Assembly (NCBI GenBank): GCA_016795245.1
Contig: JAEUIA010000003.1
Span: 1 to 64,000 of the forward strand
Direction of reading: 5' to 3'
DNA length: 64,000 bases
From: Planctomycetota bacterium
Lineage (GTDB): Bacteria > Planctomycetota > UBA1135 > GCA-002686595
The position numbers and the translations under genes are program-made. Under the pieces are notes generated by a model that worked only from the letters and a program-made list of their open reading frames with translations, was not told where the DNA came from and searched no databases. Shown here in pieces: positions 42,451 through 48,665 of the stretch. The first letter of the stretch is position 1. Each line of letters starts with the position of its first letter.

Positions 42451-44733
42451 ATGCCGCCGCTTCACACCGCTCTCACGCTCCCGCTTCTCTTCGCCTTCGC
42501 CGCATCCGGCCCGGCTCAGTCGCCGCCGGATGTCTGCGTTCCCACGGAAGCGCAACAGATCGCGCGCTTGCAGTCGCACTACCAGGCCGTCGTCGAGGAG
42601 CTGTCCGCGGCCGACGTGAGCATGCTCGCTGCGCCCGCGCGGGTCGAACGCGCGCGCTTGATCGGCGTGTTGCGTGAATTCGGCGAGCGCGGTGAGTTCG
42701 GTCGCAACGTCGACTTCCCTGCCGCGCGCGTGCCGTACTTCCGCACGGCGAATGGCCGACGTTGCGCGGTGGCTGAATTGATGCACGCGTCCGGCGAAGA
42801 CGCATTCGTCGAGAGTGTGCGCGCGAACCGCAACCACGTTTGGATCTCCGGACTCGTTGGGGACGCCACGTTCGAGAGCTGGCTCGCGCGCTCGGGCCTT
42901 TCGATCGAAGACGCGGGGCGCATTCACGGGCCGCCGATCATCGATCCAGGAAGCTCGAGCTCGGCCCCGAGCGGTCCGGCCGGCGGCAGCTACCAAGGGC
43001 CGGGCGACACCGTCTCCGGCGGAGGCGGCGCGGGATCGACGCCCAATTCGCCGCGCGCCGGCGGAGGAGCGGCGCCGAGCGGTTCACGCCCGGAGAACAG
43101 CGGCCCCGGAGTAGGAGCGCGCGGCCCGGTGAACACGGGTGGCGGAATGCCCGGCGTGCCTAGACCGATGGCGCTCGTCACGACCAGCGACGACACCTGG
43201 TGGTTGTGGTGGGAATACAACAAGAATCAGTACCTGCGGCCGAATCGCCTGACGCTCGCCAATGCGCCGATGACCGGCGACGACGCCGAGCTCGCGTTGC
43301 GCACGGCCATCGCACAGGCACGGCGATCCGCGGTGCCGCTCTTCGAGAGAGCGCTTTCCGACTCCGACGCCAACGTGCGCTCGACGGCGGCGATCGCGCT
43401 GGGGCGCGTCGGCGGGGGACCGGCAGTCGAGAAGCTGCTGAAGTTGCTCGAGGACCCGAATGTCGATGTGCGGCACAAGGCCATCCTGGCGCTGGGCGCG
43501 ACGGCCACGGCGGAAGCGGTGTTGCCGCTGCTCTCGATCGCGCGCCATGGATCGCTAGACGAGAATTCGCGCTCGCGCATCTCGCCGGTGGCGCGCCCGT
43601 TCGCGATCGTGGCGCTCGGGTTGGGGCGGCGCCATGACTTCGATGATCGCATCGACGTGGAGATCGCGAAGATCATCCAGGATCGTACGCGCTCTGACCG
43701 CGAACCGATCGGTGTCGCGGCGCTGATGTATCAAACGCTTGCGCCGAGCAAGGAACTCGCGCGCTACGCCTTGGCGATGGCGAAGGACGACGACGAGTCG
43801 CCCAGCGTGCGCTGCCGCGCGGTCGAATCTCTGCGCACGAGCAACGACGATGCGACTCTCTCCGAGATGCAGCACTTCCTGTCGGGATCGCGCCTCGATC
43901 TGCGCCGGTCCGCGGCGCTTGCGCTCGGAGAATTCCAGAACTCGCTCGCCTTGCCGGCGTTGATGACGGCCTTCGAACTCGAAGCCGAGCCGCTGACGCG
44001 CGGGTTCATCTTGATTTCGATCGGCAAACAAGGCGGCCCGAAGGCCCAGGAGTACTTGACCAAGGTGCTCGAGAAGGGCGAGTCCGGCATGCGTCGGTGG
44101 GCGGCGCTAGGTCTAGGCATCGAAGCCCGCGACATGGCCGACTTCGATGTCGCGGGGCGTCTCGCGCGGACGATCCGCGAGGCTCAGTCACGCGAGAAGA
44201 ACCAGGACGGCATGGGTGCATACTGGCTCGCGTCCGGTCTCGCGCGCGACGAAAACGCTCGCCTGTCGATCCGCAATGCGCTCGAAACCGCGTCGGACGC
44301 GCGCCAGCGGCTGTACGCGGCGAGCGCCTTGGCTCTGCTAGGCGGAGAGGCTTCGCTCGAAGTGCTGCGCACGCGGCTCAAGCTCGAAGCGCAAGACATG
44401 GTGCGCGTCGGTATCGCTGATGCGCTCGGTGTGATGGGTGCAGCGCAAGACGCCAAGGCCATCCTGGACATGCTGATGAACCTCAACCAATCCAGGTTGC
44501 AGGGCCAGGCTGCGTCGGCGATGGCGGCCAACGGTTCTGCGGACGCGCTCATGGCGCTCACCGAGCTCGCGCGCATCGAGACCGGTTCGAGTGTGCGTCG
44601 TGCGGCGGCGATCGAAGGTCTGGGCATGATCCTCGCGCCGCACGCGCCGCTGACTTTTGCAGATGGTTCGCGCGCGGCGAACTACACGGTCTTCAACGAT
44701 TGGATCGCGTCGGTCTTTCAGACCACGCTCTGA
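42451..44733 (+). CDS. Exported HEAT-repeat protein with Gly/Ser/Pro-rich linker
   Basis: A 760-aa protein with GAGGA before the ATG and a signal peptide (PLHTALTLPLLFAFAASGPA). After about 150 residues comes a flexible linker (about 165-235) rich in Gly, Ser and Pro, then about 500 residues of HEAT/PBS-lyase-type repeats such as AAIALGRVGGGPAVEKLLKL and KAILALGATATAEAVLPLLS. HEAT solenoids bind proteins. It is probably periplasmic. No catalytic motif is visible. It sits alone between ilvE and the convergent kinase. Confidence 0.82.
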   Translation: MPPLHTALTLPLLFAFAASGPAQSPPDVCVPTEAQQIARLQSHYQAVVEELSAADVSMLAAPARVERARLIGVLREFGERGEFGRNVDFPAARVPYFRTANGRRCAVAELMHASGEDAFVESVRANRNHVWISGLVGDATFESWLARSGLSIEDAGRIHGPPIIDPGSSSSAPSGPAGGSYQGPGDTVSGGGGAGSTPNSPRAGGGAAPSGSRPENSGPGVGARGPVNTGGGMPGVPRPMALVTTSDDTWWLWWEYNKNQYLRPNRLTLANAPMTGDDAELALRTAIAQARRSAVPLFERALSDSDANVRSTAAIALGRVGGGPAVEKLLKLLEDPNVDVRHKAILALGATATAEAVLPLLSIARHGSLDENSRSRISPVARPFAIVALGLGRRHDFDDRIDVEIAKIIQDRTRSDREPIGVAALMYQTLAPSKELARYALAMAKDDDESPSVRCRAVESLRTSNDDATLSEMQHFLSGSRLDLRRSAALALGEFQNSLALPALMTAFELEAEPLTRGFILISIGKQGGPKAQEYLTKVLEKGESGMRRWAALGLGIEARDMADFDVAGRLARTIREAQSREKNQDGMGAYWLASGLARDENARLSIRNALETASDARQRLYAASALALLGGEASLEVLRTRLKLEAQDMVRVGIADALGVMGAAQDAKAILDMLMNLNQSRLQGQAASAMAANGSADALMALTELARIETGSSVRRAAAIEGLGMILAPHAPLTFADGSRAANYTVFNDWIASVFQTTL

Positions 44734-44745
44734 CGTCGTGTCCGA

Positions 44746-47589
44746 TCAGCGCGGCACGAGCCGCGTTCCCAGCACGCGATCGACGATCGACTGAGCCGGG
44801 TTGAGAATCGCGTGGATCAGCGCGGCGATCCAGAGCGCGAGGGTGATCACTGCCAAGGCCGTCGCCCAGGCGGCATGCTCGCTCATCACGAGCGCGAACA
44901 CTCCACCAGACGCCAGCGCGATGGGGAGCCACGCCAGGAAACAGCGCACGCAACTGCGCCACCTGGATGCGCGACGGCCTCGTCGGTCGCGGATGCGAAT
45001 GCCGAAGATCGCATTCGAGATGCCACCGCGCGTGATCAGGATCGAAAGCAGCGCAAAGAAGCCCCAGGTCGGCGCGGCGCCCATCGCCATCGTCGCGCCG
45101 ATCTCGTATGGCCGCGCAAGCGGGTTGTAGTCTTCGGGAATTCCGCCCTCGGACCGCTCACGGGCGACGAGTTCGTCTGCGCGCGCAATGTCCGCGGCAC
45201 TCGGCGCGGGGTAATTGGCTCGAGCGCGCGCGATCATCGACTTGTCGGTCTCCGGCAGGCGCGCCTCAGTCGCGGCCTGGAGTTGGCTGTTGGATGCCGC
45301 CGAAATCAACAGCTCCCGCGCGGCGAGCTGCTCATCGCTCAGCACACCCTCGATGCTCTTCTCCTCACGCGCCCTTGCGTCGGCGCGCACGTCGCGCATG
45401 AGCGAACTCATCTTCGAGATATCGTCGATCATCGGACTGATCCAAAACAGCATGGCGATCGAGATCAGGACGGACCCGGCAGGAATGATGGTGCCGACGG
45501 CGAGCTGGGCGGAGCGGGTGCGCCGCAGGAGTTCCGATGGACCGGCGTCCACAAGCTCGAGACCACGCGCGATCTCCTCGAGGTCCTTGAACGAGTTGCT
45601 GCTGTGCAAGAGTCGGGTGACGATGGGCTCGGCGTGCGCGGGTAGGTCGCGCGGGAGATCGACGACGTGGTCGCCATCACCGCGGAACAGCAGCCGTGCC
45701 GCTTCACACACCAATTCGCGCGGCTCATAACGCTTCGCTTCTGCATTCCCGATCGGGTGATCGAGCAATCGCAGGTTCCAATTGCGATCGATCCACACCT
45801 GCGCGAGCGCATAGGACTGCGGGTTGTCCGCAGCAGCCCGCATCTCGCGCACGAGGGTCGCGATCATCTGGCGCGCACGCCACCACTCCAGCGGCGGGTG
45901 GTGCGCCGCGAAGGTGAGCAGGCTGACTCCACCTGGCGACTCGAAGACGTCACCTTCCCCTCCGGCAGTGCGCACGACGCCCAGCCAGCGCAGCCGGGTA
46001 GGCCGCGACAAGGACCGTCGGGCTTCATCAGCCATGTCCTCGCTGCGCGTGGGGATGTGCAACCAGACGCTGCGTTCGAGCGTCGCGTCGCGAGCTTTGA
46101 GCACGCTGCCCAACGGGGTCGCACCGACGAATCCTTCGATCGCGTAGTCGCCCACCTGTTCGGGCGTTGTCCCGCGACCGGTCAGCTCGAGTTCAGGCGG
46201 CGCGGTCTTTGGACGGAACGCTCGGAACGGTGAGTTGACCGGCATGACGAGCGTGCCGCTCAACAGATCGTGCACGCCGCGCCAGCCGTTGGAGCGGCGG
46301 GCGGTGACGAAGAGGAGCGCCAGGATGACGAGCGGTCCGATCGAGGCAAATAGGGCGACCCAGACATCGAGCGACACGAAGGCGAACACACCGAGGCGCC
46401 AAAGGGCTGTCGGGGCTTGGAATACGAACCCCCGCTTGAGTGCGCCGACAAGGCTCGGTTCGCGTGAGGCACCCGAGACCACCCGCAAGCCTAGGAGCCA
46501 CTTGCCCGGGGTCGTGCCGAACACGCCTTCACCCACGAAGAAATAGGCGAACGAGAAGAACTGAATGACGAACTCGCTGATGACCGACGCCGGGTCGCCT
46601 GGATGTTGGGCGATCCGCAGCAGGCCCAGATGCAGCGCTTCGTCGAGCATCAAGATGCTCGCGCTCACGACCGACAAGACGGCGGAATCCAGGATGTACG
46701 CCACGATGCGGCGCCAAGGCGGCGCGACGGCTGTCGAGGTCGTTGCGAACGGTGCGAGGGCTTCGCGCAGCGCAGCCAGGTCGCGGAAGCGCTTCTCGGG
46801 ATCGCGTTCCATCGCGCGCAAGACGACGCGCTCCAAGGCGCGCGGGATGTCCGGGCGGACCGAACGCGGCGCTTCGGGCGCTTCGGTCAGGATGCGCGCC
46901 AGCACTTCGCCGACGTTCGACCCCGAATACGGCGCGCGCCCGGTCAGGATCGCGTACAGGGTCGCACCGCACGAGTACATGTCGCTGCGGCCGTCGAGCG
47001 GACGACCGCGTACTTGTTCAGGACTGGCGTACAACGGCGAGCCAAGGAATTGACCCGTGCGCGTGAGGTTCACGTCGCGCTCGAGCGTGCGCGACAGGCC
47101 GAAGTCGCCGACCTTCACCTGGCCGTCCTCGGCGACGAAGCAATTCGAAGGCTTGACGTCGCGGTGCAGGATGCCGGCGCTGTGCGCAGCTTCGAGTCCG
47201 TCGATCAAGTCGATGGTCCAACGCACTGCCGTCTGGATCGGAATCACGTCCCCGCGCGCGATCTTGTCCTCGAGCGTTTCGCCGTCGACGATCTCCATCG
47301 CGATCGCGGGTGAGCCTTCGATCTGATGCGCGCCGTAGACGAAGACGCAGTTCGAATGGCTGATCGCCGCGGCGAGGCGCGCTTCGCGTTGGAATCGTTC
47401 GTAGGCCTCCTTCGAGACGGCCAGATCGGCGAGCAACACCTTCAGCGCGAGCCGTCGTCCCGAGGACATCTCCTCGGCCTCGTAGACGATGCCCATGCCG
47501 CCGCGCCCGAGCTCACGCCGCAGCCTGAACCCGGCCGCGTCGCGCGGGAGGGAGGGCTGCGAGGGGAGCGGAGGGGCGGACTGCGTCAC
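44746..47589 (-). CDS. Ser/Thr kinase - RDD - pseudokinase - RDD membrane protein
   Basis: A 947-aa protein from the GTG at 47589; a TTG at 47643 would add 18 residues. The first kinase domain (about 20-290) is intact: GRGGMG, Lys50 in ALKVLL, HRDVKPSN with Asp144, and DFG at Asp162. Then an RDD membrane domain (about 305-470) contains TTPGKWLLGLRVVSG. A second kinase-like domain (about 485-740) keeps GATPLGSVLKARD but has VWLHI for the Lys motif, IDRNWNL for HRD and DHP for DFG, so it is a pseudokinase. A membrane span, linker and second RDD domain (RGGISNAIFGIRIRD) follow. It probably senses something in the membrane. Confidence 0.87.
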   Translation of the reverse strand: MTQSAPPLPSQPSLPRDAAGFRLRRELGRGGMGIVYEAEEMSSGRRLALKVLLADLAVSKEAYERFQREARLAAAISHSNCVFVYGAHQIEGSPAIAMEIVDGETLEDKIARGDVIPIQTAVRWTIDLIDGLEAAHSAGILHRDVKPSNCFVAEDGQVKVGDFGLSRTLERDVNLTRTGQFLGSPLYASPEQVRGRPLDGRSDMYSCGATLYAILTGRAPYSGSNVGEVLARILTEAPEAPRSVRPDIPRALERVVLRAMERDPEKRFRDLAALREALAPFATTSTAVAPPWRRIVAYILDSAVLSVVSASILMLDEALHLGLLRIAQHPGDPASVISEFVIQFFSFAYFFVGEGVFGTTPGKWLLGLRVVSGASREPSLVGALKRGFVFQAPTALWRLGVFAFVSLDVWVALFASIGPLVILALLFVTARRSNGWRGVHDLLSGTLVMPVNSPFRAFRPKTAPPELELTGRGTTPEQVGDYAIEGFVGATPLGSVLKARDATLERSVWLHIPTRSEDMADEARRSLSRPTRLRWLGVVRTAGGEGDVFESPGGVSLLTFAAHHPPLEWWRARQMIATLVREMRAAADNPQSYALAQVWIDRNWNLRLLDHPIGNAEAKRYEPRELVCEAARLLFRGDGDHVVDLPRDLPAHAEPIVTRLLHSSNSFKDLEEIARGLELVDAGPSELLRRTRSAQLAVGTIIPAGSVLISIAMLFWISPMIDDISKMSSLMRDVRADARAREEKSIEGVLSDEQLAARELLISAASNSQLQAATEARLPETDKSMIARARANYPAPSAADIARADELVARERSEGGIPEDYNPLARPYEIGATMAMGAAPTWGFFALLSILITRGGISNAIFGIRIRDRRGRRASRWRSCVRCFLAWLPIALASGGVFALVMSEHAAWATALAVITLALWIAALIHAILNPAQSIVDRVLGTRLVPR

Positions 47590-47719
47590 GCGGCGAATTC
47601 TAGGGGTCCGGAGCGCGGGGAGCGAGCGCGAAAACAGGCGCAAGTCTTTGTCTCATCCAGGTTAGCGACACTCCTGCGGGCCTTGGCTGAATGGGAACTG
47701 GGATTCGGAGTAGTATCGC

Positions 47720-47738
47720 TATGATATCAAACCGATAT
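47720..47738 (+). promoter_or_regulatory. AT-rich dyad upstream of the SPFH gene, possible promoter/operator
   Basis: TATGAT (47720-47725) resembles a -10 box but has no good -35 at the expected spacing. It overlaps an inverted repeat, ATATC (47724-47728) with GATAT (47734-47738), and GATATC at 47723-47728 is self-complementary. The region is much more AT-rich than its surroundings and lies 37 bp before the start codon. Confidence 0.3.
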
Positions 47739-47774
47739 GAACCCAGCACGGGCCGTCCAGGCCCGGAGGAATCC

Positions 47775-48665
47775 ATGCAAGCCCGCAACGTTTCCAAAGA
47801 AGTCGTCTTCGAACCCATCTCCGGCTACCCGGTCCTGGCCCTGACCATCCTGCTGTTCGCCACCAGCGTCTTCGGATTCATCCGCGGCGGGCAACTACAC
47901 GAGCCGTCGTTCATGGTTCTCGCGTTGGGCGCGCTGCTCTTGTTCGTGCTCATCTTGCCCGGGTTCTTCATCATCGAACCCAACATGGGCCGCGTGCTCG
48001 TCTTGTTCGGGCGCTACCGCGGCACGGCGCGCAAGCCGGGCTTCTGGTACACGAACCCGTTCACGTCGAAGAAGAAGATCTCTCTGCGCGTGCACAACTT
48101 GAACGGCAAGACGCTCAAGGTGAACGACCTCCTCGGCAACCCGATCGAGATCGGTGCGATCACCGTGTGGCAAGTCAGTGACAGTGCACAGGCGCTTTTC
48201 GACGTCGTCGAGTTCGAAAAGTTCGTCGAAGTGCAGGCCGAATCGGCGGTGCGCTTCGTCGCGAGCAAGCACCCCTACGATGACGACCACACAGCCGTCG
48301 TGGCCTCCAACTTGCGCGGCAGCGCCGACATCGTGGCGCAAGAGCTGCAACAGGAACTGCAGCAACGCCTCGACATCGCCGGCATCCACATTCTCGAAGC
48401 GCGCCTGAGTCACCTGGCCTACGCGCCTGAAATCGCCTCGGCGATGCTGCAACGTCAGCAGGCCGGCGCGATCATCGCAGCGCGCAAACTCATCGTCGAC
48501 GGGGCGGTCGGCATGGTCGAGCACGCGCTCCAGGAGCTGTCCAAGAACTCGGTCGTGCACCTCGACGACGAGCGCAAGGCGACTTTGACCGGCAACCTGC
48601 TCGTCGTCTTGTGCGGACACCAAAACCCGGTTCCAGTCGTGAACACCGGCAGTCTCTACACCTGA
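47775..48665 (+). CDS. SPFH/band-7 (stomatin-like) protein
   Basis: A 296-aa protein starting at [10 protein letters not shown], with GGAGGA 4 nt upstream. Two N-terminal hydrophobic segments ([16 protein letters not shown] and [16 protein letters not shown]) are followed by the SPFH core ([44 protein letters not shown]). It ends in an alanine/glutamine-rich helix. SPFH proteins organise membrane microdomains. The gene ends 6 bp before a small RHH-like gene, so they are co-transcribed. Confidence 0.9.

Follow-up and report, generated by a model that had tools for sequence, protein, structure and literature searches.

A 64,000-nucleotide stretch of contig JAEUIA010000003.1 from a Planctomycetota bacterium (hereafter the window) carries a reverse-strand gene whose product combines an intact Ser/Thr protein kinase domain (KIN1), an RDD membrane domain (RDD1), a second kinase-like domain predicted to be a pseudokinase (PK2) and a degenerate RDD domain (RDD2). 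There is very little doubt about this anatomy of the 947-amino-acid protein. The window protein and 23 further open reading frames (ORFs) from fetched loci make up a PK2 family of 24 members. This family of tandem kinase/pseudokinase membrane proteins is real and under constraint, although the family libraries used do not recognise its second kinase-like domain. The best explanation of this architecture, to which we give an even chance, is a membrane sensor kinase that an ATP-free pseudokinase in the same chain would regulate in cis.

Domain architecture of the protein

The gene and its parts are listed below (TM, transmembrane).

44746..47589, minus strand: whole gene, kinase, RDD1, pseudokinase and split RDD2 (ORF, translation, domain scans)
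46747..47541, minus strand: KIN1, residues 17-281, intact PknB-like Ser/Thr kinase domain (Pfam Pkinase; PknB as best PDB match)
46255..46728, minus strand: RDD1, residues 288-445, membrane domain (PF06271, 65.6 bits)
45553..46164, minus strand: PK2, residues 476-679, pseudokinase domain (profile match to KIN1 and PDB kinases, motif losses)
45448..45504, minus strand: first TM segment of RDD2, residues 696-714 (hydropathy)
45091..45447, minus strand: internal loop of RDD2, 119 amino acids, residues 715-833, net charge -6, probably extracytoplasmic (hydropathy, charge, alignment)
44749..45090, minus strand: C-terminal part of RDD2, residues 834-947, TM2 to TM4 (Pfam RDD, E 5e-4; hhalign)

Translation begins at a GTG codon at 47,589 and stops at 44,746, while an alternative in-frame TTG start at 47,643 would give 965 amino acids. 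Domain boundaries and key columns were taken from one MAFFT alignment, which HMMER and hhalign profile alignments support. KIN1 matches Pfam Pkinase over residues 23-268 (E 1.2e-45) and has PknB as its best PDB match (E 7e-49). It is a Hanks-type Ser/Thr kinase by its VAIK Lys, alpha-C Glu, HRD, DFG and APE motifs, all of them present in 23 of 23 family members; the joint alignment places K50, E69, HRD and DFG in every one.

RDD1 lies far above the curated cut-off of PF06271 (65.6 versus 24.1 bits; E 6e-21 within the protein). RDD2 matches the same family only weakly, scoring 20.8 bits when the second half is searched alone and 24.9 bits with its in-frame neighbours, and an hhalign comparison of the RDD1 and RDD2 profiles gives an E value of 2.1e-11. 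Both appear to be genuine RDD domains, RDD2 being degenerate and split by a loop of about 120 amino acids. The order kinase-RDD-pseudokinase-RDD, which an earlier note had read from the window alone, is thus borne out: Pfam finds Pkinase, RDD and a weak second RDD, and profiles find PK2, so that an RDD domain does follow each kinase domain.

Topology was assigned by hydropathy rather than by a trained predictor. In the window protein and most relatives, RDD1 would contain three to four TM segments and RDD2 four. The first two TM segments of RDD2 are 107-153 amino acids apart in 13 of the 21 members that could be assessed, and in 11 of these 13 the intervening loop is net negative. The next loop, of about 30 amino acids, is positively charged in most members, in keeping with a cytoplasmic position. 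Conservation of the long loop is weak (24% mean column identity, with only weak motifs in the alignment), and neither Pfam nor NCBIfam places a known domain in that of the window protein; such poor conservation might be that of an input domain.

A kinase homologue recognised by its family profile

As a single sequence, PK2 gives no kinase match in Pfam or NCBIfam, either alone or within the second half of the protein, and phmmer finds no match to it in the PDB. Likewise, Pfam finds no kinase in the family's PK2 in any of ten halves that were scanned. A profile of 13 relatives behaves differently. Aligned by hhalign to a KIN1 profile, it gives a probability of 95.6 and an E value of 1.3e-8 over 195 columns, with a score of 60.9; none of 30 column shuffles exceeds 18.8, while the reversed profile scores 15.0 and the comparison with RDD 11.9. 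The same 13-row profile matches PknA among PDB sequences (hmmsearch, E 1e-8), and the best 60 of its 114 PDB matches are all protein kinases or WbdD.

The kinase homology of PK2 claimed in the earlier note therefore stands, with a qualification on how it can be seen: hidden Markov models (HMMs) searched with a single sequence are blind to PK2, such that a naive kinase test fails, whereas the profile of relatives aligns it readily. Further evidence that PK2 is kinase-like comes from an even sample of the phylum, in which 294 of 392 genomes have matches to the PK2 profile at E <1e-3, mostly ordinary kinases aligned over profile columns 1-145.

Motif losses and the ATP pocket

Three short elements of PK2 bear on its predicted state.

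46066..46080, minus strand: L504-x-R506-x-V508, at the site of PknB L33/R35/V37 (alignment)
46063..46065, minus strand: W509, at the VAIK Ala position of the catalytic spine, PKA A70 (HMMER alignment to PknA)
45793..45795, minus strand: W599, at the beta7 position of the catalytic spine, PKA L173 (HMMER alignment to PknA)

By homology and by the loss of the VAIK Lys, the HRD Asp and DFG, PK2 is classed as a pseudokinase, in which a kinase core can still be recognised. In the joint alignment its beta3 Lys site holds L, H, V, Q, R or S and never Lys, the HRD motif with its catalytic-loop Asp is likewise absent from all 24 members, and the alpha-C Glu is gone. The loss of Lys and HRD that the earlier note described thus holds throughout, while its loss of DFG holds in part, since the DFG-site Asp persists in 15 of 24 members, including the window protein; there, F and G do not follow this Asp, and the G is found in no member. 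All 24 members also lack much of the activation segment: between DFG and the end of the domain the median length is 69 residues, compared to 120 in KIN1. The Lys site and beta4 are 18-28 residues apart, compared to 33-34, which indicates that the alpha-C region is shortened.

Trp occupies the two catalytic-spine sites in 20 of 24 (VAIK Ala) and 22 of 24 (beta7) PK2 domains; the remaining rows have L, F or I at the former and F or A at the latter. The beta7 Trp lies 11 residues ahead of the DFG site in 23 of 24, and the register of both positions is the same in the HMMER alignment of the profile to PknA. All 23 KIN1 domains have A at the first site and F, L or Y at the second. Among 41 other kinases the VAIK Ala site is A in 39, E in one and M in one, and neither site is Trp in any. 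On our reading of the N-x-L motif, KIN1 F151 would correspond to PKA L173.

PKA A70 and L173 are catalytic-spine positions that contact adenine, and KSR1 A587F is an engineered lock with which PK2 may be compared (PMC12721161). With Trp at both of these positions, the adenine pocket of PK2 looks plugged, and analogy to KSR1 A587F and to MviN makes it likely that the domain is closed without ATP.

Distribution of the family

KIN1, RDD1, PK2 and RDD2 are all present in 19 of the 24 members. Three others are truncated at contig ends (L025, L029 and L102), and two, L032 and L033, lack RDD1. The relatives come mostly from draft genomes, and the four-part layout is spread over several families of the phylum. 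In one member (L033:9305-10951, genome G049) a kinase and PK2 make up a protein of 549 amino acids with no RDD domain and no TM segment by hydropathy, apparently a soluble version of the pair. In another (L098:5914-9597, G225), the kinase is preceded by a TM-like segment at the N-terminus and by a zinc ribbon.

All 24 members are apparently Planctomycetota, a placement based on DUF1559, which we take to be a hallmark of planctomycetes. DUF1559 matches number 90, 130, 43, 3, 2 and 0 in the six relatives searched and 0 in the genome of the window.

With the second half alone as query, 16 of 101 genomes had matches at E 1e-3, the genome of the window included. Matches in four of the 16 cover short stretches only; the ORFs of L035, L036 and L037 have no PK2 behind the kinase, and L034 has no full PK2. 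A 10-row profile at E 1e-17 found 17 of 154 genomes of the order (again including that of the window) and 9 of 53 good-quality genomes; a class-wide search covered equally many genomes and gave identical counts. Of the 392 genomes evenly sampled from the phylum, 10 pass E 1e-17 when counted by hand. Two loci found in genome contigs with the whole protein, L001 and L002, match in the kinase domain only.

Constraint, correlated divergence and origin

The ratio of nonsynonymous to synonymous substitution rates (dN/dS) of PK2 is 0.21, 0.26, 0.21 and 0.19 in four close pairs, three of which share members, and that of KIN1 in the same pairs is 0.10, 0.18, 0.21 and 0.20. A more distant pair, near saturation, gives 0.42 for PK2 and 0.23 for KIN1. 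Ratios near 0.2 show that PK2 is under constraint. They speak strongly against PK2 and RDD2 being a functionless relic in decay, as do intact reading frames and motifs common to several families of the phylum. Such a relic is hardly credible, even if PK2 does evolve faster than KIN1 (mean p-distance 0.72 compared to 0.52). Across 23 proteins, PK2 and KIN1 distances are correlated (r 0.84), and none of 1000 permutations gave a value as high.

The earlier note also took the protein to have arisen by internal duplication of a kinase-RDD unit. This origin is not established, and we consider it somewhat improbable. The alternating order of kinase and RDD domains favours it, and trees in which KIN1 and PK2 are sisters are not rejected by the approximately unbiased (AU) test (p 0.35 and 0.397 for careful trees, 0.928 for a quick tree). 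Nevertheless, none of 200 bootstrap trees from the careful analysis joins PK2 to KIN1, and the free careful trees place PK2 with other kinases. Each of the two domains forms one clade with full bootstrap support, both in the careful tree and in a tree with kinases of the window's own genome.

The quick tree (88 rows) used 41 of 67 other kinase domains, 18 of them from the window's own genome and 23 others; L001/L002, short fragments and any second fragment from the same locus were omitted. Because it proved not to be optimal, this tree can be relied on for the two clades alone. In the careful tree 85 rows were kept and three long rows omitted, and the tree with own-genome kinases holds 61 (21 of the 24 PK2, 23 KIN1 and 17 own-genome kinases). 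The careful tree sets PK2 next to OTH_L097, a placement open to doubt, L097 being a degenerate kinase in its own right, and the kinases labelled OTH are a biased sample because most were fetched by their match to the second half. L097 (L097:1075-3450, G371) is a separate pseudokinase type in the phylum, with VMIR at beta3, HLNLSPDQ as catalytic loop, GFA in place of DFG and a fusion to an FGE-sulfatase domain.

Other comparisons also point away from duplication. KIN1 comes only fifth by PK2-profile score among kinases of its own genome (L050, 41.0 bits; L041, 39.1; L040, 35.7; L048, 33.8; KIN1, 32.1), and PK2 has an L-x-R Leu that is absent from KIN1. Moreover, RDD1 scores 23-60 bits with stand-alone RDD domains and 6-30 bits with RDD2, although the stand-alone set consists of the best RDD matches and is therefore biased, and RDD2 is degenerate.

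A conserved putative dimer face and proposed regulation in cis

The most conserved PK2 columns are R506 and V508 (24 of 24 each) and L504 (23 of 24, with I in one). They lie between beta2 and beta3 and align with L33, R35 and V37 of PknB, in which L33D/E and D76A are structure mutants for studies of dimerisation and regulation (PMC8541300); back-to-back dimerisation has been put forward as a mode of allostery (PMC6333020). The L33 site is Leu in 8 of 18 own-genome kinases and in 22 of 23 of the PK2-like kinase sample, and the motif, being so common in ordinary kinases, is probably ancestral in PK2. What is notable is that PK2 has kept the Leu after losing catalysis, while KIN1 in the same chain is without it, with Ser or Thr at this site in 23 of 23.

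These observations suggest how the protein might work. It would be a polytopic receptor-type Ser/Thr kinase with a built-in regulatory partner. The two spine Trp residues would fill the adenine pocket, so that PK2 folds closed without ATP, and the conserved back face of the PK2 N-lobe would dock on the KIN1 N-lobe in a manner related to PknB-type back-to-back dimers. Signals at the membrane, or in the RDD2 loop, would then alter this docking and switch KIN1. Regulation of KIN1 by PK2 in cis, taken by itself, has in our estimate slightly less than an even chance. That relatives across the phylum keep the layout points to control of the live kinase by the dead one, and constant pairing with one kinase clade, together with correlated divergence, suggests a cis partner.

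Several findings weigh against this model. A Leu33-type contact residue is found on the PK2 side only, such that a symmetric PknB-like contact is not expected and a one-sided contact at the PknB-type face may be formed instead. The alpha-C region, often a route of allostery, is shortened in PK2. The AlphaFold2 single-sequence model of the second half has a mean predicted local distance difference test score (pLDDT) of 43.5 and offers no usable structure. In 8 of the 21 assessable members (seven members plus L032) the RDD2 TM1-TM2 loop is only 12-22 amino acids long; the long loop is thus not needed for the architecture, and these members together with the TM-less L033 imply that membrane sensing is not general. 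The dimer-like sensor in one chain that the earlier note envisaged agrees with the conservation of dimer-face residues and stays a suggestion.

Constant pairing in one chain and correlated divergence also bear on the idea that PK2 is a docking or scaffold domain like MviN or EssB, which would recruit a partner or substrate, or be phosphorylated by KIN1, without regulating KIN1 catalysis. The best-studied bacterial pseudokinases are of this kind: MviN is phosphorylated by PknB and recruits FhaA, EssB/YukC scaffolds secretion, and Trp-plugged pockets are described in MviN as well (PMC12599244). PK2 likewise lacks all motifs and has a shortened activation loop. The pairing argues for a cis partner rather than a scaffold, but a cis substrate would fit it too; overall we regard a scaffold role as unlikely.

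The sign of any effect on KIN1 is not decided by sequence, and we lean towards activation in cis. PK2 could instead be a brake, keeping KIN1 switched off for as long as the membrane part detects no signal. JAK pseudokinases inhibit in cis, and because all 23 KIN1 domains have Ser or Thr for the dimer-face Leu, PK2 need not mimic an activating dimer; yet nothing in the sequence speaks for this sign over the other, and a brake seems quite unlikely. A more specific form of the activating model is also doubtful: PK2 would supply in cis the N-lobe dimer face that KIN1 has lost, forming a Trp-locked, ATP-bound-like obligate heterodimer whose activation is tied to input from the split RDD membrane domain and not to receptor dimerisation. 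If so, permanently Trp-locked PK2 would be the natural equivalent of the lock engineered into KSR1 as A587F (PMC12721161).

Bacterial pseudokinases are largely unexplored by experiment, according to a 2025 review (PMC12599244). A live and a dead kinase in one chain provide a direct test of whether a plugged-pocket pseudokinase switches its partner in bacteria. The family also lets one ask whether a Hanks-type receptor can function without coming together with a second one, and the RDD membrane domain gains a likely place in signalling.

Neighbouring genes and other observations

Four neighbours of the gene were scanned and encode an aminotransferase, a HEAT-repeat protein, an SPFH protein and an oxidoreductase. 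Two of them recur in relatives.

47691..48665, plus strand: Band 7/SPFH protein, divergent neighbour, 101 bp from the kinase gene (domain scan)
42451..44733, plus strand: HEAT-repeat protein, convergent neighbour (domain scan)

SPFH homologues lie beside the kinase in L022, L023, L024, L026 and L031, and HEAT homologues in L022, L023, L024, L025 and L026; none were found in the other loci searched, several of which are short contigs. A link to membrane microdomains is no more than a lead. The HEAT-repeat protein at 42451-44733 has a signal-peptide-like N-terminus, and L022 has two copies in a row.

The genome of the window (G000, 4.47 Mb) is rich in Hanks-type kinases, with 34 Pkinase matches, some of which are two pieces of one domain. 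One match, L066 (G000:C51:53669-54415), has FEVQVF in its beta3 region and is possibly a pseudokinase. Paired RDD matches on one strand occur at G030:C9:38317-39229, G024:C272:1523-2385 and G454:C343:1644-2506, as if stand-alone RDD genes stood in adjacent pairs in several relatives.

Comparison with known systems

Literature searches, whose scope lay outside the supplements of PMC11032199 (307 kinase architectures) and subscription papers, found no description of the kinase-RDD-pseudokinase-RDD architecture. KIN1 is closest to the PknB structure and the PK2 profile to PknA, and in both PknB/PknA and this protein the membrane attachment is C-terminal to the kinase. PknB, a PASTA receptor that crosses the membrane once, is believed to dimerise (PMC6428115), whereas the RDD region of the window protein is polytopic and its chain also includes a dead second kinase domain.

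Among bacterial pseudokinases, MviN/ActPs3 share with PK2 the loss of all three motifs, a deletion in the activation loop, membrane association and bulky aromatics proposed to fill the pocket (PMC12599244). In that account MviN is actinobacterial, has no fused active kinase and, in M. tuberculosis, ends in a carbohydrate-binding domain; the VALT and Lsidhpsr motifs of ActPs3/MviN are replaced in PK2 by VW(I/L)x and (L/V)W(I/V)D (PMC12599244). EssB/YukC resemble PK2 in lost motifs, a degraded Gly-rich loop, a reduced activation loop and a C-terminal TM segment (PMC12599244); EssB is not known to have an active kinase in cis. A further difference is that the four scanned neighbours of this gene include no type VII secretion genes. 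In GLW pseudokinases, too, bulky residues surround the VAIK Lys, a Leu-Trp stands close to what was once the catalytic loop, and a TM segment lies C-terminally (PMC12599244). They carry GLW in place of HRD, whereas the Leu/Val-Trp of PK2 lies on beta7, two residues past the Asn site of HRDxxxxN, and this family is not proteobacterial.

JAK and GCN2 combine an active kinase and a pseudokinase in one chain. The same is true of plant tandem kinase-pseudokinases such as Yr15 (PMC6170490). All of these are eukaryotic, whereas here the active kinase comes first and each of the two domains is followed by a membrane domain.

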